A stretch of DNA of 50,493 nucleotides from a virus, in the IMG/VR virus record IMGVR_UViG_3300031251_000028, positions 1-50,493 of that record; one strand, given 5' to 3'. Below, in pieces: positions 2 through 50,493 of the stretch (its first letter is position 1; every line of letters starts with the position of its first letter). Under the pieces are notes generated by a model. The model saw only the letters and a list, made by a program, of their open reading frames with translations. It searched no databases and was not told where the DNA came from. The position numbers and the translations under genes are program-made.

Positions 2-124
2 GACATTATTGACACCCTGACCAACCACAAGATCGGCTGCCAGCAGGATCTTGAAGGGAAGTCTGATGCTTATCTGAACGACCTCAAAATGCAACTGGAA
101 AACGAGAAGGAGAAGGAAGCTTAA
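2..124 (+). CDS. C-terminal end of a truncated cassette gene, function unknown
   Basis: An open frame enters from the left edge and ends at TAA 122-124, giving about 40 residues of a charged, helix-rich C-terminus. The start lies outside the window and I recognise no family. The stop codon sits inside the R'' core (GCTTAAC) of the first attC-like site, the usual arrangement for the gene of an integron cassette. I therefore infer that it is the first visible cassette gene. Confidence 0.45.
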   Translation, partial: DIIDTLTNHKIGCQQDLEGKSDAYLNDLKMQLENEKEKEA

Positions 125-167
125 CGGCTTGAGTTGAGCCTGAATAGGCTCGAACGTTTGGTTATGC
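119..167 (+). other. attC-like recombination site 1
   Basis: R'' core GCTTAAC (119-125) and R' core GTTATGC (161-167) are inverted and pair except at one position. Between them, 133-140 (GTTGAGCC) pairs with GGCTC-AAC at 147-155. G152 is unpaired, like the extrahelical bases that mark the L' arm of integron attC sites. The loop is only 6 nt and the site 49 bp, so it is short for an attC. It lies exactly between the stop of one gene and the start of the next. Confidence 0.6.
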
Positions 168-191
168 GTTCGGGTGGATCGGAGCGAATCA

Positions 192-461
192 GTGACATGC
201 ATACCAATTAAAAACGGAATACTCTGCATTACTCCAACATTCAAGCCAGGTGATCTTCCGCCAGATGGATATTTAGCTTGGCACGAATGGGCGGAAGTTC
301 AGCGCAAGGCGGGTATAAAACAGGTTGATTGCGGGGTATGTGGCAAGGCGCAAACTCCACAAGAACTAAGTGGGCATGTGAAGACGTATGAAGCGAAGAA
401 CAAACAAGGCAATTCAGTGATGGTGACAGAGCCGATATGCAGCAAATGTTTTTACGCATAA
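192..461 (+). CDS. Small zinc-ribbon-like hypothetical protein (cassette gene)
   Basis: An 89-residue protein with a CxxC pair (CGVC) near the middle and a second (CSKC) near the C-terminus, so it probably binds one zinc. The segment GYLAWHEWAEVQ looks like small hypothetical proteins I recall from proteobacterial phages, but no function is known to me. GTG at 192 is preferred because GGAGCG lies 5 nt upstream; a GTG at 174 in the same frame lacks a ribosome site. The TAA stop lies inside the R'' core of the next attC-like site, and the start is 24 nt after the R' core of the previous one. The gene thus has the architecture of an integron cassette. Confidence 0.65.
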   Translation: MTCIPIKNGILCITPTFKPGDLPPDGYLAWHEWAEVQRKAGIKQVDCGVCGKAQTPQELSGHVKTYEAKNKQGNSVMVTEPICSKCFYA

Positions 462-519
462 CGGCTTGGGCGGTGAACCGCCAGGCCTCACCGGGCGGCT
501 TCCACCGTCCTGGTTAAAC
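456..519 (+). other. attC-like recombination site 2
   Basis: R'' GCATAAC (456-462) and R' GTTAAAC (513-519, matching GTTRRRY) bound a 64-bp site. The L'' arm GGTGAACCGCC (472-482) pairs fully with GGCGG-TTC-ACC in 494-506. This leaves C499 and C503 unpaired: two extrahelical bases on the L' side, as in bona fide attC hairpins. The spacer after R'' (GGCTTG) matches that of site 1. Confidence 0.7.
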
Positions 520-535
520 CAGCGAAAGGAAAGCC

Positions 536-604
536 ATGCAAGAATGTATTTTCACACTGGAAAGCATACGAGAATATCTAAAAATTACAGGGGGCTGGAT
601 ATGA
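536..604 (+). CDS. Possible 22-residue leader peptide
   Basis: A short frame with ATG at 536 has AAAGGA 5-10 nt upstream and ends at TGA 602-604, overlapping the ATG (601) of the next gene. This fits translational coupling. It begins 17 nt after the R' core of attC-like site 2, where a cassette gene is expected to start. It could equally be a decayed N-terminus, and there is no recognisable function. Confidence 0.35.
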   Translation: MQECIFTLESIREYLKITGGWI

Positions 605-1029
605 CCGGCGACATCGTTAAAAAAGAGGACATGACATACGGCAAACTTTCTGACCTAGAAATGGCATCCAAAGTGCGGATGCTGTTTAGAGACACTCTGG
701 AGCATGAAGCGGTCTGTTGTGGTGCGAGAGACAGGATTATGTATCTCAGCCAGCAGGTAGATCGGCTGGAGAATGAAGTTTCCGAACTGGCGCAGAATGT
801 GTGCGATTCATGCTCACCTGATAGCTACGGCTGGATATTCAACCGTGTGGAGGGTAAGGCTGCTTGTGTCTGCATGACGGAAGCTGAACCCTTCCAGATA
901 TTGAAAGCGGCGTTGGAAAAACTAGCGTGTCTTGGCAACGGTGATCGGGTCGGAAACAGTGACGGTAATATTATCGCTATTGAAGCATTAAGGGCAGTTC
1001 TCCCACTGGACTATGCAGAGTCGGTTTAA
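601..1029 (+). CDS. Hypothetical cassette protein
   Basis: A 142-residue protein. ATG 601 is chosen because AGGGGGC lies just upstream and the preceding mini-ORF stops on top of it; longer in-frame starts lack a ribosome site. The middle (residues 35-70) is predicted helical/coiled-coil with several cysteines, including CCGARD and a CDSC motif. I recognise no family. The TAA stop overlaps the R'' core of attC-like site 3, so it is interpreted as the gene of the second complete cassette. Confidence 0.55.
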   Translation: MTGDIVKKEDMTYGKLSDLEMASKVRMLFRDTLEHEAVCCGARDRIMYLSQQVDRLENEVSELAQNVCDSCSPDSYGWIFNRVEGKAACVCMTEAEPFQILKAALEKLACLGNGDRVGNSDGNIIAIEALRAVLPLDYAESV

Positions 1030-1084
1030 TGGCTTTAGCTGTGCGGCGAGCGCAGCGAAGACCGTCACCAGCGTTTTGTTATGA
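1024..1084 (+). other. attC-like recombination site 3
   Basis: R'' GTTTAAT (1024-1030) is degenerate at its last base; R' is GTTATGA (1078-1084). L'' GCTGTGCGG (1038-1046) pairs with CCG-CAC-AGC in 1062-1072, leaving T1065 and C1069 unpaired. This two-bulge pattern is the same as in the distant site at 48673-48732. The two also share 19 of 22 positions across the loop and arm region (1044-1065 versus 48692-48713). Confidence 0.6.
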
Positions 1085-3193: not shown

Positions 3194-3353
3194 AATCAGA
3201 ACCACCACCCTGAGAGACGCCGAGCGCTACCAATACGAAATGGTGCGCCGGATGGAAAAGAACCCGGCAGCGATAGAGCAGGACCACTACATGACCCGCT
3301 ACATCCTGGAGATCATCCAGGACCGTATTGCGGAAAAGGATAAAGGGAAATAA
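3183..3353 (+). CDS. Small hypothetical protein
   Basis: A 56-residue frame with ATG 3183 overlapping the end of the nuclease gene. Its TAA (3351-3353) overlaps the ATG of the helicase-methyltransferase gene. It is charged and helical, with no recognisable domain. The tight overlaps on both sides argue that it is a real coupled gene. Confidence 0.55.
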   Translation: MATEIRTTTLRDAERYQYEMVRRMEKNPAAIEQDHYMTRYILEIIQDRIAEKDKGK

Positions 3354-5854
3354 TGGATTACATCGAATTTCTGAAATCCAAGATCGAGATAGCCAAGGAC
3401 ACCGGGTTCATCATCAAGCCGGAAGAGGTCAACCCGGTTATGAAGCCCCATGCGAGGGATGCGGTTGTATGGGCGGTCAAAGGAGGGCGCCGGGCGCTGT
3501 TCGAGTCATTCGGCCTCGCTAAGACCAGCCAGCAGCTTGAATTTGCCCGTATCGTTTCAGCGCGGGAAAAAGGCCGGGCGCTGATCGTGCTCCCCCTTGG
3601 CGTCAAGCAGGAGTTTGTGCAGGATGCTGTTCACCTACTCGGAATGAAGGGTCCGCCCTATGTGCGGAACATGGCCGAGGTATCGGCTGCGGAACATTCC
3701 ATTGTTCTGACCAATTACGAGCGCGTCCGCGACGGCGACATTGACCCGAAGAAGTTCACGGCAGCATCCAGCCTTGACGAAGCATCGGTGCTCAGGTCAT
3801 TCGGCAGCAAAACATACCAGACGTTCCTGGATCTGTTCAAGGGTGTGCCGTACAAGCTCGTTGCTACGGCCACGCCATCACCCAACAAGTACAAGGAACT
3901 GATCCATTATGCCGGATATCTGGAGGCGATGGACACCGGGCAGGCCTTGACGCGGTTCTTTCAACGTGACAGCACGCAGGCGAACAACCTCACGCTTTAC
4001 AAACACAAGGAAGAGGAGTTCTGGTTGTGGGTTTCCACCTGGGCACTGTTCGTTACCAAGCCGTCCGACCTTGGCCATTCTGATGAAGGCTACGACCTGC
4101 CCCCCATGGAAGTCATTTACCATGAGGTACCGGTAGACCACCTGGCAGGACCTGCCGAGAAGGACGGGCAAACCAAGCTATTCAGGGACGCAGCCGAAGG
4201 ACTTAAAGAAGCGGCTCGGGAGAAGCGGGACAGTATTGACACGCGCATTGACAAGATGATGGAGATCATCACCGCTGCGCCGGACGACCATTTCATAATC
4301 TGGCACGACCTGGAAGCGGAGCGTCACGCTATCAAGAAGGCCTTGCCCGAGGCGATGGAGGTGTACGGGACGCAAGACTTGGATATCAGGGAACAACGGA
4401 CTATCGACTTTTCCCATGGCCGGATCAAGTACCTCGCGACGAAACCTGAGATATCAGGATCAGGCTGCAACTTCCAGCGGCATTGCCATAAGGCCATATT
4501 CCTGGGCATCGGGTACAAGTTTAACGATTTCGTGCAGGCCATCCACCGCGTATATCGGTTTCTCCAGACGGAGAAAGTAGAGATCCACATCATCTATACT
4601 GAGAGCGAACGCGCCATCCTCGAAGCTCTGCTCAAAAAATGGAAGCAGCATGATTACCTCGTCGGCAAGATGACCGACATCATTAAGCAGTATGGACTAT
4701 CCACTACATCCGTGATCGACAAACTGGCGCGGAAGATAGGAGTCAACCGAGTGAAGATAGAAGGCCAGCACTTTACGGCAGTCAACAACGACTGCGTTCT
4801 GGAAACCTCACAGATGCCAGATAACAGCATCGACCTAATTCATACCTCCATCCCGTTCAGCAACCATTACGAATATACCCCGTCATACAACGATTTCGGC
4901 CATAACGAGAATAATCAGCGGTTTTTCGACCAGATGGATTTCCTCACCGATAACCTGCTTCGCATTCTCAAACCCGGTCGGGTGTTTGCCTGCCACGTCA
5001 AAGATCGCGTCATGTTCGGCAATGCCACCGGTACCGGTATGCCAACCATCGACCCGTTCCATGTGGACTGCATCAATCACTACCGCGATCACGGCTTTCA
5101 GTATTTCGGCATGATTACCGTCATTACCGACGTGGTGAAGGAGAATAACCAGACCTACCGCCTGGGCTGGACAGAGCAGTGCAAGGACGGCTCTAAAATG
5201 GGCGTCGGTTGTCCTGAATACGTACTGTTATTCCGCAAGTTACCTACCGATACCTCAACCGCTTATGCAGATGTGACCGTGACGAAAACGAAAGAAGAAT
5301 ATACCCGAGCTCAGTGGCAGCTTGACGCCCATGCTTTTTGGCGATCATCCGGCAACCGGCTAGTGAATAAAGACGAGCTGGCCAGCATAGACACCAGCAA
5401 CCTGCAGCGCGTGTACCGCGAGTTCAGCCGGGAGACGGTCTACAGTTACGAGGATCATGTTGCCCTGGCAAAGAAGCTGGATTCTGATGGCCGGCTGCCG
5501 GCGACCTTCATGGTGGTAGCCCCCGGGTCCTGGACCGACGAAGTATGGGACGACATCAACCGGATGAGAACCCTGAACAGCGAACAGGTCCGGCGCAACT
5601 TACAGATGCACGTCTGCCCCCTGCAATTCGACATCGTGGAGCGAATTATCAACCGGTTCAGCAATAAGGGCGAAATGGTCTTTGACCCGTTCGGAGGTAT
5701 CGGTACCGTCCCATACATGGCGATTAAGGCCGGGCGCAAGGGCTACATGACCGAGCTCAATAGCGACTATTTCCGGGATGCTATCGGGTACCTGCAGGCG
5801 GCAGAGAAAGAGGTGGATATGCCGAGTCTGTTTGACTTAATGGAGGCCGCTTAA
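3353..5854 (+). CDS. Helicase-DNA methyltransferase fusion
   Basis: 833 residues. The N-terminal ~450 resemble an SF2 helicase: a degenerate Walker A (FGLAKTSQ at ~52-59, normally GLGKT), DEAS Walker B (~141), TATPSP motif III (~172) and QAIHRVYRF motif VI (~396). The C-terminal part is an amino-methyltransferase of the permuted type. Motif IV reads TSIPF (~498) instead of DPPY/SPPY, and motif I is FDPFGGIGT (~777). Phages carry similar fused proteins, so self-methylation of phage DNA is likely; whether the helicase half is an active translocase is unclear given the Ala in Walker A. It resembles a restriction-modification Res-Mod arrangement, but no nuclease domain is evident. Confidence 0.8.
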   Translation: MDYIEFLKSKIEIAKDTGFIIKPEEVNPVMKPHARDAVVWAVKGGRRALFESFGLAKTSQQLEFARIVSAREKGRALIVLPLGVKQEFVQDAVHLLGMKGPPYVRNMAEVSAAEHSIVLTNYERVRDGDIDPKKFTAASSLDEASVLRSFGSKTYQTFLDLFKGVPYKLVATATPSPNKYKELIHYAGYLEAMDTGQALTRFFQRDSTQANNLTLYKHKEEEFWLWVSTWALFVTKPSDLGHSDEGYDLPPMEVIYHEVPVDHLAGPAEKDGQTKLFRDAAEGLKEAAREKRDSIDTRIDKMMEIITAAPDDHFIIWHDLEAERHAIKKALPEAMEVYGTQDLDIREQRTIDFSHGRIKYLATKPEISGSGCNFQRHCHKAIFLGIGYKFNDFVQAIHRVYRFLQTEKVEIHIIYTESERAILEALLKKWKQHDYLVGKMTDIIKQYGLSTTSVIDKLARKIGVNRVKIEGQHFTAVNNDCVLETSQMPDNSIDLIHTSIPFSNHYEYTPSYNDFGHNENNQRFFDQMDFLTDNLLRILKPGRVFACHVKDRVMFGNATGTGMPTIDPFHVDCINHYRDHGFQYFGMITVITDVVKENNQTYRLGWTEQCKDGSKMGVGCPEYVLLFRKLPTDTSTAYADVTVTKTKEEYTRAQWQLDAHAFWRSSGNRLVNKDELASIDTSNLQRVYREFSRETVYSYEDHVALAKKLDSDGRLPATFMVVAPGSWTDEVWDDINRMRTLNSEQVRRNLQMHVCPLQFDIVERIINRFSNKGEMVFDPFGGIGTVPYMAIKAGRKGYMTELNSDYFRDAIGYLQAAEKEVDMPSLFDLMEAA

Positions 5855-32337: not shown

Positions 32338-35300
32338 ATGGCCGGACGATTCGCAATTGAGGACGACACCCCTACCACGGACCGCACGGTTTCCCAGAGC
32401 CGTTTTACCATTGAAGAAGAACCCACCGTTCAGCCTCAGGTCAGCGCAATGCCTGATTTGGGGAATCCTCAGATGATGCCTTCACATACGAGAGGGCCGC
32501 TATCCTCCGCCAGAGAGCGGATATTCACCCGTCCAGATTCGACTGACACGCGCACATTCCAACAGTACGACCCGAATGCACCTATCGCCCGTCGGCAGTT
32601 GCAACCGTTGGCGTCTGCTATTCAGAACCCTGTTGGCACGGCGGTAAGCGGTGCCATGGGTGTAGCCAAGGGTGCTACGCTTGGCCTGATGAACAAGCAG
32701 GTCGAAGAGGCCACGGCCGCCATGCCGTCCCTTGGACTGGAGCCGAGCAAGCTTGCCGAGGGTGTAGGGGAGTTCGCCGGGATTATCGCGCCATGGGAAG
32801 GTATCGCCGGGGCGGTGAGCGCCACCTTCGGCCTTGCCAATGCCGGGAGAGTAGGCAGGGTTGCCACCCAGGCGGCGACTGGCGGCATTGTAGGGGCTAC
32901 AGAGGCCAGCAACACCGGCAAAGATATTGCCGACGAGGCGGCGAAGACTGCGGCATTTGCCGGAGCGATCACGGGCGGTCTGGAATTGCCGGGGGCAGTC
33001 AGGGAGTCGAACTGGTGGCGGATGCTCACCAACAAGGAGCGGGGCCTTGTCGTGCAGACCATTGACGACATCAAAGCCGGGCTCAAGTCTCAGGGATGGC
33101 ATGAGGGGAGGATAGAGGCGAAGATCGCCCGTCTCGACCCCGAAAGCTTCCAGGATGCGCTCAAGAAGAGGATGGCGGGTGAAGGAACTCCGGCACCAGA
33201 ATCAGGCGGGGACCAACCATCCCCAAAACCGGCAGAAAAAGCCGCAGAAGTCCTGAAAGAAGCGGCACCGCCCGTGGGGACCAATCAGAGCCAGTTACCC
33301 GCCCCAGCCGAGTATCCGCCCGTCAACACCGACCTGATGGATCAGATCAAGGCCCGCCGAGGCCGTTACACCATCGAAGAGGAGCAACAGATCAGTGATA
33401 CAAAACCGGGAGAAACCGCGCAAGAAACCCAAGTGACGAAAGCACAGGAGGTGCAGGATGAACAGAAGACCGAAGTATCTGAGGAAGGAAATACGGGGGA
33501 GACGGGAACTAGCCAGGATGCGGTTCGCGATTCTTACCAAAACAATATCGCTGGAGGAAGCGGAGGAAATGTATCCGCCCAAACCGGAACCTATTCGTTG
33601 CCGAGTGGGGAGCGTGAGCCGAGACGACCAGAAGATGTACTTTCCGGTGCATCAGGAGGTCTCCGCCCCGCAATCAGAGAACCCAATTCAGACGTTACAA
33701 TTGGCCAGCCAGGCAGCACCCATCCCGAGATAATCGACGCCAACGACATCGGCCCGGACCATGAGCGCGGTTTTGTCGGTCCTGATGGCGAATTCATGAC
33801 CCGCGCCGAGGCCAAGGACTGGCTCAAGAAAAATGACCCGGAGATGTTCAAGGCATGGGAGCTGGAGTCGGATACACCGGAGCTTCACAGCCAGGATCTC
33901 AATGCCGCGGTTGAGAAGGTGGCGGAAGAAGGCGCGGAAAAGGCAGTAACACCACGGGAAGTAACGCCCGATGAAGTCGCAAATATCAACGATCAGATAA
34001 CTCAAATGCGCCAGGAAGCCCACGCCATTACTGAAAAGATCAAGGGTGTGGTACTCCCTAACGGTGTGGTAAAAGGGCGCATAGGTGGGGCAAAGGGCGA
34101 AGTTCTTTCCAAGAAAGCGGAAGGTTTGTTCAAGAAGGCCAATGCGCTTGAAGATGAATGGTATGCGGCATTGGCGCCGGATAAATTCACGCCGGACGAA
34201 TTGAACCAGGCAGCAGCCAAGGGAATGCCGATCCTCAAACCTTCCGATGTGCCAAGCGTACAAGCGGAAACGGTGCCGGATAAAAAACCGGCACCAACTA
34301 ATAAAACCACCGGCCCCCGCAACCTTCTGAGCGAAATTCGCAAAGCTGGCGGCATCAACATGCAGTCTTTGATCGACAACCTGGACAGCAAAGAGATCAA
34401 GGGCGCCAAGGGTGGTAACCGCTACCTGCGAGTAACCGGCAAGAACGGTGTTGGCCTTGACCAGATGGCTACCCAGATGCGCGACCTTGGCTGGCAGGTG
34501 CCGCTTGATGTAGACGGCCGGGTGGATGCCAAGGCGTTTGCCGAGATGGTGCGTGACCAGATCAACGGTCAGGCCGCTATCCATCCCGACGACGTGGACC
34601 GTTTCACCGACAAGCGTGTAGCGGACGCCGCGCAAGATATTCATCACCTATCGGATGCAGAGCTTGACGAACTCGACTATGCCAACTGGACGAACGAAGA
34701 ACGGGACGCCTACCATGCTGGGCTTGATGCGATCAGCGCTGATTTGTTAGACGAGCTTGTAGAACCCGACTATAATTATTTATCGGACAGGATCAAGGAG
34801 GTCCAGGATGCGATCACAGCCGTTACAAGAGACATTGAAGGGCGCGGTGAAGAACTTGCCGAAGGCCAGCCAGGTGAAGGTACTCAACGCCTTACAGAAA
34901 AAAATGAAGGCAACGGCCGACCTGCCGGCGAAGTAGTCTCTACCTCAGGCGAGGTCCAGAACAAACTTTTCGCAACACCCCCCACCTTCGGCAAGAAGCC
35001 GCAGACCGGCGGCAAGGCCACCTCTACCAGTGACCTGCTGGATAACTTCACGGCAGACAAAACGCCCGACCTCTTTGCGTCTCAGGAAGTTCCTGGTGAG
35101 ACACAACCAGAACGCATTGAAGATTTCGGCGAGAAGATCGGTGGAGCCCGCAAGGACACCGCTGAACGAGGCTATGCCAAGGCTGGCAAGACCAAGGGGG
35201 AGCCTGCGCCTGAACCGTGGCGCAAGAAGTACGTGGCCATGGAAAAGGTGGACGGTTCCGGGTGGTCTGTCGGCAAAACCGGTGACCGCTTCGGTATCAG

Positions 35301-38300
35301 CGCAAAGAGAGCACAGACCTTTGCCACAAAAGAGGATGCAGAGGCTGCAATACCGGTCTATGCCGTTGCCGAAAAGCATCATGTTTACCAGAACAAAGAC
35401 GGTACCTGGAACATCTGGAAAAAAACCGGGGAACGCAAGCGCATCAAGGTAGTAGCAGAAGATTTCCCGTCCCGCGAAGAGGCCATGACATACATGGCGA
35501 CACATGCGGTGGATCTGCTGAATCTCAAGACCTCATTTGGCGAAGAGATCCTGCCGGTGCCGGAAATCGCCATCAGAAAGGGAACGGAACGACGTACCGG
35601 CCCGGCAACTCCCGAGATGTTCATGGAGACGTTCGCGCCACGGGGAATTGAATTCGGCAACTGGAACAACCAGGCGGAACGGCAGCAGGTAATGGATCAT
35701 GCCTATGATGGTCTGCTTGATCTGGCCGAAGTGTTGAACGTGCCGCCCAAGGCATTGATGCTGAATGGCGACCTTGCCATTGCTTTCGGCGCCAGGGGGC
35801 AGGGACTCTCCGGGGCCAAGGCCCATTACGAGCGAGATTACGCCGCCATTAACCTCACCAAAATGAGCGGCGCCGGCTCACTGGCGCATGAATGGTTCCA
35901 CGCCTTTGACCACTACATGGCCCGGCTCGATGGCAAAGCTGCTGCTGAAAGGGCGGCTAACGACAAGGGAAACAAGGTTTTCGAAGAACGCGGATTGAAG
36001 CGTGACCTTCAGAGCCATGGCAACAGTTTCAATTCCAAACTCCGGCCGGAACTGCAACAGGCTTACAAAGACCTGATCAAGGCAATGTACCGAAAGGCCG
36101 AGAAGTATGTGGAGGATACTGAGAAGGCGGACAAGTTCGTCGCCACTACCCGCGAAAATCTGAGCGAATCGCTCCAGTCTATCCGCAATGACCTTACCCG
36201 CAACCTTGCTGAAGATTATACCTGGCGCAAAAACAAGCGGGGATTGGCACCCGCCTCAGAAGAACAGCTTTCCGAATTTGACCGACTGGCAAATGTTCTT
36301 GTTGAAGGCGGCGACCTTGAAACCCAATATCGGCCCGACAATCCTACGGCCCCAGCCAACAGCCGGGCAGCGTTCAGCGGCCGGAATACCAACGACACCC
36401 TGGAGGGGATCGGCGCCATTCTCAAGGCGGTACGAAACCGCAGCGGATTCAATGCGGATCGCACCGGTATACTAGACCGTCTCCGCACGGATATGTCGCT
36501 GTATTCCGCCCGGCTCAAGATGTTGAAGGATGCCGAAAGTCAGACGGAACAAACCCGACAGATGCCCACCTCCTTCGCCATGGAAGCGAAGAAGATGGAC
36601 CAGGCACGGGCCGGGGATTACTGGAGCGAACCTCATGAAATGGTGGCCAGGGCGTTTGCATCTTATGTGGAGGATAAGGTAGCCCAAGCTGGTGGCCAGA
36701 GCGATTTCCTAGTGTACCACGCCCACGGCGGTATTCTGCTCCCGATGATTGACGGTTTCATTGCCCGGCCCTACCCGGAAGGCGCGGAACGATCAGCCAT
36801 TAACGACGAGTTCGACAAACTGATAGGAACACTGAAGACAAAGGAGACCGAGCGAGGCACCGCGCTATTTTCCCTTGCAAAACGCGAAGACGATGTTAAA
36901 TTAAATTCAGACGATGCCGAACGAATCGGCAAGATCAAGCGAGGCGAATATGTCCCGGAACGACTACAGCAAAAATATGGAGAAGCGTTGTCAGAAGGCG
37001 ATCTCGGCGCAGCAGCCAGCATCGCTCGAAGAGTTCAGGAAGCAGTGCGCGGAGGGGAAATCTCCGGCAGTGATTCATGGGAAAGACGCCAAAGATACCG
37101 CCAACTCGCCGAAAGCGAAATAAGACCCGCCGAAGAAAAGGCCCTGCGCGAATGGGCCGAGGTCAACAATAAGTTAATCCCCGCATCAGATTTTGAACAA
37201 GCACTGCAAGAGCGCGGCGCCAAGGGAGGTCAGGAGCATAAAGTCTACCTGTCACCCGACGGAGCTCGCGTTTTTAAGGCCAACAACCTTTCTTTCCACG
37301 ATACATACCTGGATTTCTTTCACCGTCTCGCTGTTCACAATGTCGAGTTTTCCGGAACGCCTTATCAGTTTGAAGGGTTCACTGAGCTTGACGGCAAACT
37401 ACAACCAGTTATTTCTCAACCATGGGTGCAAGGCCGCAAGGCCACCTTTGAGGAATCCCACAGCAACATGGTCAATCGCGGCTTTGATCCAGTTGGCACC
37501 AGTGACAAGCCAGTCGCCTACCGTATCCCCGATACCGACCTGATCATCCGAGATGTCCATGGTGATAATACCCGCATAAACAAAGCTGGCGACATCTTCA
37601 CCATTGACCCGGTGATCGAGCATGACCTTGACACCAAGGTGGACCGGTTGAAGGCGGAAGCGACTGCCGCCGAAAAGGCCCCGAACCTTTCCCTCTCCAA
37701 GGCCAAAAAGTCCGGCATCCTCCAGGCCGACGCCCTGGCCGCCGTAGATCCCCTCCTGAAGAACTGGAAGAACGCTCCGCCTGTGGACGTGATACAGGAC
37801 GAATCGCAATTACCGGCTGACCTGTTCGACCAGATCCGCTCCATCGGTGCCGAGGGGCGGGTGCGCGGGCTCTTCAACGAGGGCCGGGTACACCTGATCG
37901 CCGATAACCTCCGCACAACCGATGAAGCCCTTGAAACCCTGCTGCATGAAGTAGTGGGGCACTACGGCATAAGAGGCTTGATGGGTAAGGATTTTGACCC
38001 GATCTTGCGGGACATCTATGAACTGTACGGCAAGAAGGGGTTGGAAGAGATCGCCTACCGCTACGGTTTGGACCTGAACGACCCCGAGGACCGCAAGATT
38101 GCCGCCGAAGAGAAGCTGGCCGAGATAGCGCAGACCGGAGAGCGCCCCGGCTTTGTCCGCCGCGTGATTGGCATGATCAAAGACTGGTTGAGAAAAATGG
38201 GCCTTGACCTCAAGTGGACGGATGAGGATATCAAGGCGCTGCTTGACCGGGCCAGGGGATGGGTGGAGAGAGGGAAGGGCAAGAGCGCGGCCGAGAATGT

Positions 38301-41300
38301 CCGGTTTTCCATGGGCAAGGAAGAACCCTCCACGTCCAAACCAACCCCCGAACTGGTGAAGCGCTACAACGAGTTCCTGAACCGGGCGGAAGAGGCGGTT
38401 AAGAACCGCAACGAGGAAGCCGCCTTGAAGTGGCTGGCTAGGGCCGACGAGATGGAAAGATCCTGGACGCCGGAACCGGCAATAAAGATTCCAGGAGGGA
38501 CGCAAGATGCCAACAATATTCAAAGGGGCCGACAAAGTGAGCAGGCTGGTGAATATCATCCAGACCAGGGCGTTGCTGAAGGATCTGGAGAAAAACCCGT
38601 ATTACCTGGGAAGGACGGGGAAACTGCTGATGACACCCAGCGTACCACCGGCATCAAGAACGCCGTAACCGAAGAGGAACGCGAGACCAAGGGCAAGAAC
38701 CCCGTGGAGGTCGAAACCCGCCGCTCATTCGGTGAAGCCTTCGACCGCGGGAAGGAGGCGGTTGACTCCGGGCAGATCGACCCCCGTGTCTTGGCCGAGA
38801 ACCTTGCCAACGCCCCCCGCGCTCTGTCCGCCGAGGAATCCGTTGCCCTGATCTACGACCGTATGAGACTTCAGAACGATCATGCCACGGTCATGGAGCA
38901 GATCGAGAAGGCCACGGCTGCGGAAGATACCGCCGCTGTCCTGGAGGGGCGGCAAAGGCTTGCCAAGATCGAGGACGACATCAACACCAACGACGAAGCC
39001 GCCCGTCGCACCGGTTACGAGCAGGGCCTTGGCCTGGCCGCACGCAAGATGATGATCGCCGAGGACTATTCCCTTGCCCGTTCCGTGCAGCGCCTTCGGG
39101 TTGCCACCGGCCTGCCAGATATCCCCGAAGAGCTCCGCGCCAAGATCGAAGACCTGACCAAGCAGTTGCAGGAAGCCTTGAAGAAATCAGAGGTATATGA
39201 GGAAAAAATAAGGGAACTGGAAGCCGCCCGCAAGGTCCGCCGGATGACCGAGGAACTGGCACCGGTCCGCCGTGCAGAGAAGCGCGGCAGCAGCAGCCGT
39301 AAGGCCATGGACACCGAATTCCGCGCCCTGTCCAACAAGCTCAAGGCCAAGTTTGGCGTGCTCAATATCGGTTTCGACCCCGAGGACGTGGTGGTACTGG
39401 CGGAAATGGCCCGCAACCGGGTTATCGCCGGGATTACCGACGCCAAGGCGATTGTTGACGACATCTTCGAGGAACTGAAGGACCTGCCCGACCTGGAGAA
39501 GCGGGACATCCGGGACGCCATTTCCGGTTATGGCAAAGCCTACAAGATGACTCAGGACGAGATATCGGCGGAGCTGCGGGAAGCCCGCCGGCAGATGCGC
39601 CTTATCTCCGCCCTGGAGGATGCACAGGCCGGGGAACCGCCGTTGCACTCAGGACTCCAGCGCGACCCGATTTCCGATGAAGTCCGAGACCTACAGCGCC
39701 AGGTCAAGGAGGCCATGCGAGAGAGCGGCCTTGATGCTCAGTCCATGCGGTCACCGGAAGAACAATGGAAAACCGCCATTGATTCGGTCAAGACCCGGCT
39801 CAAGAACGAGATCCACGACCTGGACCAGCAGATCACCGCGGGTAAGCGGACCCACAAGGAAAAGTCCTCCATCGAGTACGACGAGGAAGCCAAGAAGCTC
39901 AAATCCATCCGCGACGACAAGAAACGGCTCCTCGACGAGATCGACGCCCGGCCGCCGAAGTCCGAGGATGAATTGCAGAAGATCCACCTCAAGGCATACA
40001 AGACCCGGACCGCCAGCCGCATTGCCGACCTGGAACGGAAGCTTAAAACCGGCGACTTCGAGAAGAAGGCCCGGCGCGTCCTGCAAATGGACCCGGAAGA
40101 CCTGAGACTGAAGGCCGAGGCCGAGCGGATCAAGGAGGCCATCAATACCGAGATCCGCAAGCAGGAGTTGGCAAACCGGACGGCGGCCGAGCGCGGCCTT
40201 GACTGGATGGTGAAGTGGAGAAGGGCTGTCATCCTCTCCGGATCTGCAACTATCGGCAAGCTGACCACCGCGGCGTCCCTCCGGCAGATCACCACTCCCC
40301 TCGAGGAGCTTGTGGGCGGGGTGCTGTCCAGGATGCCGGTATTCTCCCGTATCGCCGAGAAGGCCCCTCGAGAAGGTGGCGGTCTGAACGTCCGGGCCGA
40401 GGCCGAGGCAATGCGGCAGTGGTTCGCCAAGGCCACCTACATGGACGCCTGGGACGTGATCAAGACCGGCCGGGGAGAACTGGACCGGATGTATGGCAAA
40501 AAGCACGACCTTCCCCCCGAGGCGATTGAGTTCTTCGGCCATGTCCATGGGGCGCTCAAGATCATGCCGAAGCGGGCCGAGTTCTACCGCTCCCTCCAGA
40601 AAAGGACCGAGTGGGCCATCAAGAACGGCCTGGACGTATCCAACCCGACGACACAGGCCACGCTTTTTGCCGAGTCATACGTGGATGCCAACCGCGCCAT
40701 CTTCATGCAGGACAACGCCATGGTCACCGCTTACCGGATGCTGATCAACTTCCTGCGCCACAAAGGGACCGCGGGCAGGGCAGGGGCGACCGCCCTGCAG
40801 ATGCTCATGCCGATTGTGAAAATCCCGACTAACTTTGTGGCCGAGACGACTTCCTACGCTGCCGGCGGCGCCAAGGCCATCGGCAAGCTGATCGGCTCCA
40901 AGGGTATCGGCAACCTCACCCCTGAGGAAGCCGATTATGTCATGCGGGCCTTGAAAAAGCAGGGCATAGGCTTGGCCATGCTGGTCATGGGGTATCTCCT
41001 GGCCAGCGAGATTGGCGGGTATTACGAACGGGGCGAGAAACGCAAGGCCAGCGACGTAAAGGCGGGCGGGCTCCGTATCCTGGGTGTGGATATTCCGCGC
41101 TGGGCGCTCCATACGCCGGTCCTGGAAGTCTTACAGATCGGCGCCACCCTGCGACGTGTCGAGGACCACTATAAAGAGTACAACGAGAAACACCCGGACA
41201 AGCCCCAGAAACAGCATGCCATTGCCTCCGGGTTGTTCGCCGGGGCCAAGGGGCTGATTGAGGAAGTGCCGTTTTTCGAGCAGCCGGTGAGAACAGGCGA

Positions 41301-41667
41301 ATCGCTCCGCACGGCCGAGAGCGCCACGAAGTTCGGCAGCCAGTTTGCCGAAAGCCTCCTGGTCCCGCCCGACCTGCGGAAGATATCGAAGTCGATGGAC
41401 AAGGCCGGTGACGAGCAGATCCCGAGGGAGCAGAATACGCTCCTTCAGATGCTTCAAGGGGATATCCCCGGCCAGCGCAAGAAGTTGCCCCTGGATATGA
41501 AGCGGATCGAGCGGATGCAGATCGACCAGATGGCCAACATCATGGAGCAGGCACCGTCCTACGTGGTGGACGAAATCAAGCCGGTATTCCGCAAGAAGTT
41601 CCGCAACTCGAAGGGGCTAGAACCGGAAGAGCGGCGGCGGTATCTGGATATTTTGAGATCGGAGTAA
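32338..41667 (+). CDS. Giant polyvalent internal virion protein
   Basis: 3109 residues with several identifiable domains. Residues 1-350 hold three short RF/YxIE-acidic motifs (RFAIEDD, RFTIEEE, RYTIEEE) and two Gly/Ala-rich membrane-like stretches (~97-190). At ~960-1195 an LPD1-like polyvalent domain carries the zincin motif HEWFH (1184-1188). At ~1625-1770 there is a polyvalent kinase-like domain (HGDN at 1741, Asp1757 in IDPV). At 1870-1875 there is a second putative metalloprotease motif, HEVVGH. Coiled coils occupy ~2200-2650, and a hydrophobic segment lies at ~2877-2898. Location last in the core-protein run matches proteins ejected into the cell (T7 gp16, N4 vRNAP). Ejection is inferred; no polymerase motif was seen. 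Confidence 0.85.
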   Translation: MAGRFAIEDDTPTTDRTVSQSRFTIEEEPTVQPQVSAMPDLGNPQMMPSHTRGPLSSARERIFTRPDSTDTRTFQQYDPNAPIARRQLQPLASAIQNPVGTAVSGAMGVAKGATLGLMNKQVEEATAAMPSLGLEPSKLAEGVGEFAGIIAPWEGIAGAVSATFGLANAGRVGRVATQAATGGIVGATEASNTGKDIADEAAKTAAFAGAITGGLELPGAVRESNWWRMLTNKERGLVVQTIDDIKAGLKSQGWHEGRIEAKIARLDPESFQDALKKRMAGEGTPAPESGGDQPSPKPAEKAAEVLKEAAPPVGTNQSQLPAPAEYPPVNTDLMDQIKARRGRYTIEEEQQISDTKPGETAQETQVTKAQEVQDEQKTEVSEEGNTGETGTSQDAVRDSYQNNIAGGSGGNVSAQTGTYSLPSGEREPRRPEDVLSGASGGLRPAIREPNSDVTIGQPGSTHPEIIDANDIGPDHERGFVGPDGEFMTRAEAKDWLKKNDPEMFKAWELESDTPELHSQDLNAAVEKVAEEGAEKAVTPREVTPDEVANINDQITQMRQEAHAITEKIKGVVLPNGVVKGRIGGAKGEVLSKKAEGLFKKANALEDEWYAALAPDKFTPDELNQAAAKGMPILKPSDVPSVQAETVPDKKPAPTNKTTGPRNLLSEIRKAGGINMQSLIDNLDSKEIKGAKGGNRYLRVTGKNGVGLDQMATQMRDLGWQVPLDVDGRVDAKAFAEMVRDQINGQAAIHPDDVDRFTDKRVADAAQDIHHLSDAELDELDYANWTNEERDAYHAGLDAISADLLDELVEPDYNYLSDRIKEVQDAITAVTRDIEGRGEELAEGQPGEGTQRLTEKNEGNGRPAGEVVSTSGEVQNKLFATPPTFGKKPQTGGKATSTSDLLDNFTADKTPDLFASQEVPGETQPERIEDFGEKIGGARKDTAERGYAKAGKTKGEPAPEPWRKKYVAMEKVDGSGWSVGKTGDRFGISAKRAQTFATKEDAEAAIPVYAVAEKHHVYQNKDGTWNIWKKTGERKRIKVVAEDFPSREEAMTYMATHAVDLLNLKTSFGEEILPVPEIAIRKGTERRTGPATPEMFMETFAPRGIEFGNWNNQAERQQVMDHAYDGLLDLAEVLNVPPKALMLNGDLAIAFGARGQGLSGAKAHYERDYAAINLTKMSGAGSLAHEWFHAFDHYMARLDGKAAAERAANDKGNKVFEERGLKRDLQSHGNSFNSKLRPELQQAYKDLIKAMYRKAEKYVEDTEKADKFVATTRENLSESLQSIRNDLTRNLAEDYTWRKNKRGLAPASEEQLSEFDRLANVLVEGGDLETQYRPDNPTAPANSRAAFSGRNTNDTLEGIGAILKAVRNRSGFNADRTGILDRLRTDMSLYSARLKMLKDAESQTEQTRQMPTSFAMEAKKMDQARAGDYWSEPHEMVARAFASYVEDKVAQAGGQSDFLVYHAHGGILLPMIDGFIARPYPEGAERSAINDEFDKLIGTLKTKETERGTALFSLAKREDDVKLNSDDAERIGKIKRGEYVPERLQQKYGEALSEGDLGAAASIARRVQEAVRGGEISGSDSWERRQRYRQLAESEIRPAEEKALREWAEVNNKLIPASDFEQALQERGAKGGQEHKVYLSPDGARVFKANNLSFHDTYLDFFHRLAVHNVEFSGTPYQFEGFTELDGKLQPVISQPWVQGRKATFEESHSNMVNRGFDPVGTSDKPVAYRIPDTDLIIRDVHGDNTRINKAGDIFTIDPVIEHDLDTKVDRLKAEATAAEKAPNLSLSKAKKSGILQADALAAVDPLLKNWKNAPPVDVIQDESQLPADLFDQIRSIGAEGRVRGLFNEGRVHLIADNLRTTDEALETLLHEVVGHYGIRGLMGKDFDPILRDIYELYGKKGLEEIAYRYGLDLNDPEDRKIAAEEKLAEIAQTGERPGFVRRVIGMIKDWLRKMGLDLKWTDEDIKALLDRARGWVERGKGKSAAENVRFSMGKEEPSTSKPTPELVKRYNEFLNRAEEAVKNRNEEAALKWLARADEMERSWTPEPAIKIPGGTQDANNIQRGRQSEQAGEYHPDQGVAEGSGEKPVLPGKDGETADDTQRTTGIKNAVTEEERETKGKNPVEVETRRSFGEAFDRGKEAVDSGQIDPRVLAENLANAPRALSAEESVALIYDRMRLQNDHATVMEQIEKATAAEDTAAVLEGRQRLAKIEDDINTNDEAARRTGYEQGLGLAARKMMIAEDYSLARSVQRLRVATGLPDIPEELRAKIEDLTKQLQEALKKSEVYEEKIRELEAARKVRRMTEELAPVRRAEKRGSSSRKAMDTEFRALSNKLKAKFGVLNIGFDPEDVVVLAEMARNRVIAGITDAKAIVDDIFEELKDLPDLEKRDIRDAISGYGKAYKMTQDEISAELREARRQMRLISALEDAQAGEPPLHSGLQRDPISDEVRDLQRQVKEAMRESGLDAQSMRSPEEQWKTAIDSVKTRLKNEIHDLDQQITAGKRTHKEKSSIEYDEEAKKLKSIRDDKKRLLDEIDARPPKSEDELQKIHLKAYKTRTASRIADLERKLKTGDFEKKARRVLQMDPEDLRLKAEAERIKEAINTEIRKQELANRTAAERGLDWMVKWRRAVILSGSATIGKLTTAASLRQITTPLEELVGGVLSRMPVFSRIAEKAPREGGGLNVRAEAEAMRQWFAKATYMDAWDVIKTGRGELDRMYGKKHDLPPEAIEFFGHVHGALKIMPKRAEFYRSLQKRTEWAIKNGLDVSNPTTQATLFAESYVDANRAIFMQDNAMVTAYRMLINFLRHKGTAGRAGATALQMLMPIVKIPTNFVAETTSYAAGGAKAIGKLIGSKGIGNLTPEEADYVMRALKKQGIGLAMLVMGYLLASEIGGYYERGEKRKASDVKAGGLRILGVDIPRWALHTPVLEVLQIGATLRRVEDHYKEYNEKHPDKPQKQHAIASGLFAGAKGLIEEVPFFEQPVRTGESLRTAESATKFGSQFAESLLVPPDLRKISKSMDKAGDEQIPREQNTLLQMLQGDIPGQRKKLPLDMKRIERMQIDQMANIMEQAPSYVVDEIKPVFRKKFRNSKGLEPEERRRYLDILRSE
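33458..33733 (+). CDS. Nested out-of-phase ORF 1 inside the giant gene
   Basis: 91 residues in the +1 frame. AGGAGGT at 33446-33452 is 5 nt before ATG 33458, near-ideal for translation. The product looks natural (KEIRGRRELARMRFAILTK, then ISLEEAEEMYPPKPEP). The giant frame over the same DNA is a low-complexity Gly/Ser/Thr/Glu/Asn linker. This suggests an older small gene overprinted by the long frame. Function unknown. Confidence 0.5.
   Translation: MNRRPKYLRKEIRGRRELARMRFAILTKTISLEEAEEMYPPKPEPIRCRVGSVSRDDQKMYFPVHQEVSAPQSENPIQTLQLASQAAPIPR
34808..34936 (+). CDS. Nested out-of-phase ORF 2 inside the giant gene
   Basis: 42 residues in the same +1 frame, basic and helical (LKGAVKNLPKASQVKVLNAL). 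AAGGAGGT at 34795-34802 is 5 nt upstream of the ATG. The 15-base motif AGGAGGTSCAGGATG is shared with nested ORF 1. The giant frame here again is linker-like. Confidence 0.4.
   Translation: MRSQPLQETLKGAVKNLPKASQVKVLNALQKKMKATADLPAK
36950..37123 (+). CDS. Possible nested out-of-phase ORF (weaker)
   Basis: 57 residues in the +1 frame with only GAGG 6 nt before the ATG. The product has a plausible composition (SLEEFRKQCAEGKSPAVIHG), but the giant frame over this stretch also looks like ordinary protein. Support is therefore weaker than for the other nested ORFs. Confidence 0.2.
   Translation: MSRNDYSKNMEKRCQKAISAQQPASLEEFRKQCAEGKSPAVIHGKDAKDTANSPKAK
38507..38668 (+). CDS. Nested out-of-phase ORF 3 inside the giant gene
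   Basis: 53 residues in the +1 frame. AGGAGG at 38493-38498 is 8 nt from the ATG. The product is natural-looking (FKGADKVSRLVNIIQTRALL, then EKNPYYLGRTGKLLM), while the long frame reads as a Gly/Asp/Glu/Gln-rich linker. Third case in the same reading frame. Confidence 0.45.
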   Translation: MPTIFKGADKVSRLVNIIQTRALLKDLEKNPYYLGRTGKLLMTPSVPPASRTP

Positions 41668-44586: not shown

Positions 44587-44642
44587 ACTTAAAATCCCTC
44601 GGGGGTAACTCCGTGCCGGTTCGATTCCGGCTCCGGGCACCA
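44587..44642 (+). other. attP core: 3' part of tRNA-Leu(UAA)
   Basis: From the anticodon loop (CTTAAAA) through the long variable arm (GGGGGTAACTCC), T-arm GCCGG TTCGATT CCGGC, acceptor TCCGGGC, A and CCA, this is the 3' half of a tRNA-Leu. No D-arm or 5' acceptor precedes it, so it is not a functional tRNA. Phages that integrate in tRNA genes carry exactly such a fragment as attP core. The surrounding ~390 bp between genes hold only this core, AT-rich sequence and the arm repeats. Confidence 0.8.
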
Positions 44643-48550: not shown

Positions 48551-48678
48551 TTTTAATGGCCTATTCAGTGGGCGTGTGCAGCGGCATGTTGATCTTGTCT
48601 CTTTTTTGGGGTTCGGATGATAAGCGGGACGATATACCTCGCTTCATGCCGATGGAAGATTACAAGGATGGGAAGTAA
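48532..48678 (+). CDS. Very small membrane protein
   Basis: 48 residues with GGAG 7 nt before ATG 48532. N-terminal hydrophobic segment (IEIVLMAYSVGVCSGMLILS), then an acidic/charged tail. Its TAA is inside the R'' core of the attC-like site that follows. Confidence 0.5.
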   Translation: MSTIEIVLMAYSVGVCSGMLILSLFWGSDDKRDDIPRFMPMEDYKDGK

Positions 48679-48732
48679 CGACAAAGCGCACCGGCAAGCG
48701 GAGCGCAGACCGTGTGCCGCGACTGGTTAGAC
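48673..48732 (+). other. attC-like recombination site 4
   Basis: R'' AAGTAAC (48673-48679) and R' GTTAGAC (48726-48732, perfect GTTRRRY). L'' GCGCACCGG (48686-48694) pairs with CCG-GTGC-GC in 48710-48720, leaving T48713 and C48718 unpaired. The bulge pattern and loop sequence match attC-like site 3 (1024-1084). Confidence 0.7.
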
Positions 48733-48763
48733 AACCGGACGTGCCACGGAGCGAGGCGGGACA

Positions 48764-49630
48764 ATGAAAGACCTTTACGGAAACATAGACGAGGAAGGCA
48801 TGTATCAGATGGCGCTTGCAGTCCCGTTGCAGGAAAAGATTGAAAGCGCGATTGCCCTTATCCGGTCTTTTGAATCGCAAGCGTTGAAACTGTCGGATGA
48901 TGGGTTTTATGTCTGCTTTTCTGGCGGGAAAGACAGCATTGTCATGGCAAAACTATTTGAAATGGCGGGGGTAAAGTACCGGCTGCATTACAACAACGTG
49001 ACCATAGACCCGCCTGAGCTGGTGCAGTTTGTTAAGCGGGAATACCCGCAAACGGAATGGCACAGTGTAGGGACTCCGCTGCCGCTTTACATGGCAAAGA
49101 AAAGCAACGGGCCACCGACACGATTAGCGCGGTGGTGTTGTGAGATTTACAAGGAGCAGGGAGGTAGCGGGGTTTTTAAGGCAATCGGAGTGAGGGCGGA
49201 AGAGTCGCCACGGCGTAAAGGCTTGTGGAAACAGATCACGAACAACCGCAATACAGGGCTGATTCTCTGCCCCATTTTGTACTGGACTGAGCGGGACGTA
49301 TGGCAGTTTATCCGCGACAACGGCATGAAATATTGCAGTTTGTACGATGAAGGTTTCAAGCGTTTGGGATGCATCGGTTGTCCGATGGGTGGGAAAGAGC
49401 AACAGCGTCGGGATTTTTTACGGTGGCCGAAGCACGAAAAGCTATGGAAGCGAGGATTTGCTGCGTATTGGGCTGCATGGAAAGGAGTCCCGCGTCTCCG
49501 AGTGAACAAACAGGGAAATCTTGACCGCTGGATTGAACGAATGGACACCGTTGATGACCTCTGGAACTGGTGGATTAGCGGCAAGGCAGATGAAGGGGAT
49601 GCTCCTGATTGTCAGGGCTATCTCTGGTGA
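48764..49630 (+). CDS. PAPS reductase-family protein (cassette gene)
   Basis: 288 residues. SGGKDS at 53-58 is the PP-loop of the PAPS reductase/DndC-like superfamily. RWCCEIYKE (~125) and GCIGCPMG (~205) give paired cysteines typical of phage members that may bind a metal or Fe-S centre. It could activate sulfur for nucleic-acid modification or act on a nucleotide; the substrate is unknown. Start 32 nt after the R' core of an attC-like site, and a half site just past its stop, mark it as a cassette gene. Confidence 0.8.
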   Translation: MKDLYGNIDEEGMYQMALAVPLQEKIESAIALIRSFESQALKLSDDGFYVCFSGGKDSIVMAKLFEMAGVKYRLHYNNVTIDPPELVQFVKREYPQTEWHSVGTPLPLYMAKKSNGPPTRLARWCCEIYKEQGGSGVFKAIGVRAEESPRRKGLWKQITNNRNTGLILCPILYWTERDVWQFIRDNGMKYCSLYDEGFKRLGCIGCPMGGKEQQRRDFLRWPKHEKLWKRGFAAYWAAWKGVPRLRVNKQGNLDRWIERMDTVDDLWNWWISGKADEGDAPDCQGYLW

Positions 49631-49635
49631 GATTT

Positions 49636-49650
49636 ATAACAATGATTATC
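49636..49650 (+). repeat. Half attC-like site / shared cassette boundary, second copy
   Basis: ATAACAATGATTATC, identical to 1643-1657. It follows a cassette gene stop by 5 nt and is not followed by a full attC partner core. Confidence 0.45.
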
Positions 49651-50129: not shown

Positions 50130-50493
50130 ATGGCCGACGAATCAACAAAAATCACACTGGAATGGCTTCAAGGTAAAAACGCATGTGGTGAAGGTCAACA
50201 GTGGTTCAAGAAGCATTTCCCAAAAGGCGGGGAGATTGCAGATGTGCTTCGCATGGTTGCGCTGGATGAAGCAAACGCATCGTGGATAGCTTGGTTAATG
50301 CAAAGAGCAAAATACTCAGGTGTTGAGTGGTTGGATAACCTGACCGTGGGCGGCTCTCTCGACCTGAGTGGCACCCAGATCACATCCCTGCCGGATAACC
50401 TGACCGTGGGCGGCTATCTCGGCCTGAGTGGCACCCAGATCACATCCCTGCCGGATAACCTGACCGTGGGCGGCTCTCTCGACCTGAGTGGCA
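50130..50493 (+). CDS. Leucine-rich-repeat protein, 5' part
   Basis: At least 121 residues; the gene runs off the window. ATG 50130 has AGGAGG 10 nt upstream. The first ~68 residues (LEWLQGKNACGEGQQWFKKHF, then VALDEANASWIAWLMQ) form a helical domain that often precedes repeat regions in related hypothetical proteins. Then 20-residue repeats LTVGGSLDLSGTQITSLPDN follow, of the bacterial LPx type. Such proteins mediate protein binding; the target is unknown. Confidence 0.65.
   Translation, partial: MADESTKITLEWLQGKNACGEGQQWFKKHFPKGGEIADVLRMVALDEANASWIAWLMQRAKYSGVEWLDNLTVGGSLDLSGTQITSLPDNLTVGGYLGLSGTQITSLPDNLTVGGSLDLSG
50341..50493 (+). repeat. 60-bp tandem coding repeats
   Basis: Units at 50341-50400, 50401-50460 and a partial from 50461, nearly identical (a few substitutions at the Ser-Leu-Asp/Tyr-Leu-Gly position). 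The repeat continues past the window edge. Confidence 0.9.

Follow-up and report, generated by a model that had tools for sequence, protein, structure and literature searches.

The window, by which we mean the whole stretch of DNA analysed (50,493 bases, recorded as a linear virus sequence), most probably (about 85%) holds the remnant of an integron owned by a phage, with cassettes whose genes are reversed relative to their attC sites and with an integrase gene (intI) lost except for its 3' end. Integrons are gene-capturing devices that are thought of mainly as bacterial, phages being seen as occasional carriers. The window encodes terminase subunits, a portal, a major head protein, an internal virion protein, tail fibres, an endolysin, an antirepressor, a repressor and a tyrosine integrase, and from this combination of structural, lysis, repressor and tyrosine integrase genes we regard it as a temperate tailed phage. 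A tRNA-Met gene (CAT) lies within the phage at 10816-10891, and an Rfam scan of the window returned tRNA only. A tRNA-like 3' end at 44600-44642 (GGTTCGATTCCGGCTCCGGGCACCA) adjoins the integrase gene and is probably the attP core, and a single ORF of 3109 aa spans 32338-41667.

A preliminary description of this DNA had named three attC-like hairpins of equal rank, at 119-167, 456-519 and 1024-1084 (attC1, attC2 and attC3), each assigned to the 3' end of the preceding gene. Hairpins with inverted cores are present at all three positions, the TAA stops of a partial plus-strand gene (2-123, truncated by the contig start and read from sequence and translation), of gene A and of gene B all lie inside the left core, which at every site is followed by GGCTT. 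The polarity of the sites is the opposite of the one described. We scored the window with two covariance models, R1 trained on 26 attCs, all of them bacterial, and R2 trained on 144 bacterial and phage attCs with the window excluded. With R1, attC1 reached 28.1 bits (E=2e-4) on the minus strand and 6.4 bits on the plus strand, and with R2 34.4 bits (E=2.8e-6), again on minus. A fourth site, attC4 (full site 48673-48732, matched at 48676-48729), scored 16.7 bits with R2 (E=0.054), and attC3 scored 10.0 bits (E=2.2), a weak match that ranks third in the window; these three top R2 matches over 50 kb are all on the minus strand. attC2 is absent from the eight R2 matches with E up to 10 in the window and stands at noise level, the case for it being made by its cassette cores and its hairpin (z -2.17), while sites 3 and 4 show no folding advantage over shuffled sequences (z -0.41 and -0.44). 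Covariance scoring thus bore out 119-167, found 1024-1084 weak and left 456-519 undetected.

To put these scores in proportion, two attCs of phage TJE1 gave 34.6 and 36.1 bits with R1 and two of phage PH101 24.1 and 25.0 bits. IntI1 is reported to recombine two attCs of each of these phages (PMC9892861), not necessarily the same sites as those scored here. The R1 score of attC1 falls between the two pairs, and of the three sites first described only this one lies within the score range of attCs from phages with proven sites. On 537 kb from 30 other phage loci R1 gave no match at E≤1. A home-made consensus scan was discarded as sole evidence, two sites having passed it against about 1.5 expected in shuffled windows, and was replaced by the covariance models.

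Read on the minus strand, the sites are built of R'' (RYYYAAC), a spacer of about 5 bases, L'' with an extra base, a loop, L', a spacer of 6-7 bases and R' (GTTRRRY). In sites 1-3 the second spacer ends in AAGCC, so that the site is closed by CAAGCC-GTTRRRY, and in site 1 the extra base lies in the first arm (GTTCGAGCC versus GGCTCAAC). The unpaired bases on the L' side, earlier read as an attC signature, are the appearance of a reversed attC. Judged by this build, the window sites are canonical attCs on the minus strand, the single-strand structure with its extra-helical base being recognised in site 1 already by the bacterial model, in site 4 at the borderline E-value given above, weakly in site 3 and not in site 2. 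attC1 looks usable still. Since the attCs point the opposite way, each hairpin goes with its downstream gene, at whose 5' side it lies, and not with the 3' side of the preceding gene.

Real cassettes require the bases at their end to be complementary to the bases at their start. The predicted cassette A (125-461, minus) consists of attC1, with a predicted cut at 124/125, and gene A (195-461, plus), which encodes a CxxC protein; its end cores match (TTATGC..GCATAA). Cassette B (462-1029, minus) is made up of attC2, a degenerate or divergent site with a predicted cut at 461/462, and gene B (plus, ending at 1029, function unassigned), and again the core at its end is complementary to its own first bases (TTAAAC..GTTTAA). 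Cassette C (1030-1646, minus) joins attC3 (predicted cut 1029/1030) to a C5 DNA methyltransferase gene on the plus strand (1097-1646; PF00145, E=5.2e-6). This gene is frameshifted near 1556, and its C-terminal motif goes on in another frame.

Between cassette C and the intI remnant lies an attI-like sequence (GATAATCATTG/TTA, 1644-1657, minus). The plus strand at 1675-1764 holds the 3' end of an integron integrase gene; the residues encoded at 1675-1749 match the last 26 positions (290-315 of 315) of the integron integrase model TIGR02249 (E=1e-5 and 7.9e-6), reaching the exact end of the model. A full IntI was found nowhere across the 50.5 kb record, and by this match the intI of the window is deleted except for its 3' end. 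An attI-like sequence together with the C-terminal end of an IntI to the right of the array argues for an integron remnant with most of intI deleted, and the minus-strand order of intI remnant, attI-like sequence and cassettes is integron geometry. Having attC1 and attC4, with attC3 weak, beside no full integrase, the record falls under the definition of a CALIN.

The 14-mer at 1644-1657 is repeated identically at 49637-49650 (minus), each copy at a predicted cassette end and the first of them beside the intI remnant; we estimate that a 14-mer repeated exactly is no rarity in a sequence of 50 kb. The second copy, which has no intI after it, adjoins a PAPS-reductase cassette (48679-49639, minus) composed of attC4 (predicted cut 48678/48679) and a gene at 48764-49630 on the plus strand (PF01507, E=8.2e-23). 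Gene order suggests that the two arrays are neighbours across the contig ends, forming one early region in a circularly permuted record. An ORF with near-identical leucine-rich-like repeats (DLSGTQITSLPDNLTVGG) runs off the contig end at 50130-50492, and these repeats may be the cause of the assembly stop there. attC4, the two attI-like copies and the 3' end of the integron integrase gene go beyond what had been listed before. The integrase remnant, the attI-like repeats and relatives with a full IntI strengthen the original proposal of integron-type cassettes in a temperate phage, which was right as to the kind of element and mistaken in its strand and extent.

We found the gene A family in 26 viral loci and the PAPS-reductase family in 18, and neither in 80 bacterial intI loci. 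In one phage contig (L012/L057) a full IntI of 450 bits, above the TIGR02249 cut-off, directly follows an A-family cassette and adjoins excisionase-like and phage integrase genes. As a query this IntI yielded 29 viral loci, and a search with an IntI alignment (A1) matched relatives encoded in 169 stretches, from which we retained the best 80. Phage genes accompany these integrons: a phrog_15-type terminase was present in 23 of the 42 contigs tested, besides matches to phrog_2, intI and its array lie between the terminase and portal genes in L061, and terminase, virion, tail, endolysin and integrase genes mark L066 as a phage. The IntI query shows 61% identity to its best bacterial match in GTDB species genomes and the viral rows of the alignment 62-85%. 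In a first IntI tree 22 viral IntIs fell on one side of a branch (support 99/96), with one Nitrosomonas row inside; this locus (Nm51) was rejected as a phage integron, as it looks chromosomal and its cassette is normally oriented. A quick tree of 112 rows placed 56 IMG/VR IntIs in an all-viral clade (SH-aLRT 88), the neighbours of which are bacterial and IntI1-type rows. Ten further viral IntIs stand outside this clade in the same tree, and L310, L311, L312, L314, L315, L316 and L317 are viral IntIs beyond the main viral clade, so that phages may have acquired integrons on several occasions. The attI-like sequence of the window is unlike the attI of the viral clade; the attI that goes with the IntI of L066 or L073 reads AACTTAAATTCAACGACAC...

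Searches with the helicase/methylase and portal genes did not turn up any phage that is closely related to that of the window and has an intact integron. The helicase/methylase gene (3353-5851) was abandoned as a pointer to relatives; it led to 80 loci, none with an integron integrase nearby, and is a poor guide because it is widespread and mobile. The portal gene returned three relatives, all distant, so an empty site in a near relative could not be demonstrated.

The cassette genes of the window lie on the plus strand, against the polarity of their attCs, as established by Pfam for the methyltransferase and the PAPS reductase and by homologues for gene A. The same reversal characterises the viral arrays. 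With R1, all 111 attCs in 31 viral loci are opposite to intI and to the genes, as are 101 of 101 in a second set of 49 loci. In bacterial and known integrons a codon score put 70 of 77 cassette ORFs opposite to intI (70 minus versus 7 plus), and by annotation the cassette genes of known integrons (L166-L168) are mostly opposite to intI. For the viral loci the codon score was mixed, with 31 cassette ORFs on plus and 18 on minus. Strand assignment by longest ORF or codon score is unreliable in GC-rich arrays, and we used Pfam instead, searching the longest ORF on each strand of each cassette in the viral arrays. Eight family matches were obtained among 40 plus-strand ORFs and none among 30 minus-strand ORFs; because Pfam found no family among the latter, we attribute the mixed codon-score result to long antisense ORFs in GC-rich DNA. 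The families on the plus strand are PAPS_reduct, Mom, an exoribonuclease, and N6/N4 and C5 methylases, and PHROGs added further Mom-like and methyltransferase matches.

Cassettes come and go with precise ends in these relatives. Between contigs that are nearly identical (96-99.9%), entire cassettes are present in one and absent from the other, with cuts at the predicted core. In L074 and L075 the flanks are 99% identical and the difference consists of whole cassettes; the extra DNA of L075 lies between CCCTAA/C and TCGAA/C. Two cassettes distinguish L066 from L067, one of them inserted exactly at attI (CACAA/CTTAAATTCAACGACAC). Precise insertion at G/TTRRRY, proposed earlier as a test on related phages, is seen in these relatives, with the cut at the left core, that is, with minus-strand polarity. 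In the compared viral contig pairs the hairpin varies along with the gene 3' of it, and as hairpin and following gene change as a unit, the polarity is fixed independently of the covariance model. The PAPS-reductase cassette of the window recurs in another phage (L028), where the protein is 93% identical, DNA similarity begins at the core of attC4 (TAA/CGACAAAG) and a sequence similar to the second attI-like copy occupies the same place. Matching ends, such as circularisable cassettes have, are thus found in the cores of the window, and precise gain and loss in the L028 boundary and in the whole-cassette differences of the relatives. IntI presumably made the cassette changes in the relatives.

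In relatives that keep an intact integron, circular cassettes would enter at attI, immediately upstream of intI, by means of an IntI cut in the folded bottom strand at G/TTRRRY (RYYYAA/C on the coding strand). The mobile unit would run from attC through a ribosome-binding site to the gene, the stop of which can be the TAA of the closing core. On the minus strand of the window the order would be intI (3' end left), attI, cassette C, attC3, cassette B, attC2, cassette A and attC1, with the cassette genes on plus, in the same direction as intI and the phage genes. Since the cassette genes point toward attI, they could not be driven by a Pc promoter located next to it; presumably they are read through from an upstream phage promoter, with intI last. 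Genes for DNA modification (Mom, methyltransferases, PAPS reductase) abound among the cargo of the relatives, and the array is therefore probably an exchangeable anti-restriction stock. With the intI of the window lost, any remaining movement would need IntI in trans, and the window sites would be decaying unevenly.

The reading of the hairpins as canonical attCs on the plus strand, each closing a normal cassette 3' of the preceding gene, agrees with the stops in the left core, and the symmetric cores suit either strand. It is nevertheless very unlikely in view of the difference between 28.1 bits on minus and 6.4 on plus for attC1, the cutting of relatives at the left core, the joint change of hairpin and following gene, and the intI remnant, which would sit at the wrong end of the array. 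That the hairpins are ordinary intergenic terminators or arose by chance is the least probable explanation: the attC models find sites 2 and 3 at or near noise and sites 3 and 4 fold like shuffles, whereas attC1 is significant, an IntI remnant and matching cassette ends are present, a precise boundary is common with L028, and the 537 kb from other phage loci contain no attC matches.

A more serious alternative, though still an improbable one, is that illegitimate recombination captured a piece of a chromosomal integron array in inverted orientation, the viral IntI relatives being a separate matter. Phages that carry fragments of chromosomal integrons have been described (PMC9892861), the intI tail of the window (26 aa) is too short to be assigned to the viral clade, and the attI-like sequence of the window is unlike that of the clade. 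An ordinary array, however, keeps its genes along the attC polarity when inverted, whereas the window genes oppose it, like those of viral arrays and unlike most bacterial cassettes; the recurrence of the A and PAPS families in viral contigs and not in the bacterial intI loci likewise speaks against capture. Beyond the window, where a phage-owned remnant remains our preferred reading, we think it quite probable that tailed phages own an integron lineage, comprising a viral IntI clade, a cassette pool of its own, genes inverted relative to attC, cassettes that take their place in a phage operon ahead of intI, and an interchangeable reserve of genes for anti-restriction and DNA modification that turns over in nature, the window being a decayed member or a cousin.

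Integrons in phages are already known. Qi et al. 2023 (PMC9892861) reported integrons or CALINs in 21 phages, with methyltransferase cassettes and phage attCs recombined by IntI1. Their phages resemble the window and its relatives in carrying attC sites and cassettes, methyltransferases included. The IntI-bearing phages of that study which we placed in our tree group with host IntIs, unlike the viral clade, and neither reversed genes nor a viral IntI clade are described there. We found the genes of the PH101 CALIN to be opposite to its attCs, while the TJE1 CALIN has normal polarity and P12002L gave no attC match in the covariance search. With class 1 and chromosomal integrons the phage system has in common the IntI family, an attI beside intI, the structure and cut site of attC, and attC polarity away from intI; it differs in that the genes are co-directional with intI, not divergent, that attC lies 5' of its own gene, and that its cassettes hardly overlap with those of the bacterial loci tested. 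In Treponema integrons (PMC3607928) intI and cassette genes are likewise transcribed in the same direction, but there intI is turned and reads toward attI, whereas in the phage system intI is normal relative to attI and attC and the cassette genes are turned. The literature searched, a scope outside which lay most subscription papers and all bioRxiv preprints, mentioned neither a viral IntI clade nor phage cassettes with reversed genes. With at least 56 IMG/VR IntIs, inverted cassettes, precise recent gains and losses and restriction-evading cargo, phages appear to own this lineage. It gives the rapid exchange of anti-restriction genes between phages a concrete mechanism and raises the question of how reversed cassettes originated and are expressed without Pc.

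Two further observations concern the relatives. The contig IMGVR_UViG_3300011416_000031 (L030 and L031) carries two PAPS-reductase-family paralogues and shares three further small genes with the window. A reverse transcriptase family (phrog_1423, E=2.4e-110) was matched in a scan of ORFs pooled from L076 10993-20733 and L068 1395-8950, beside two viral integrons.
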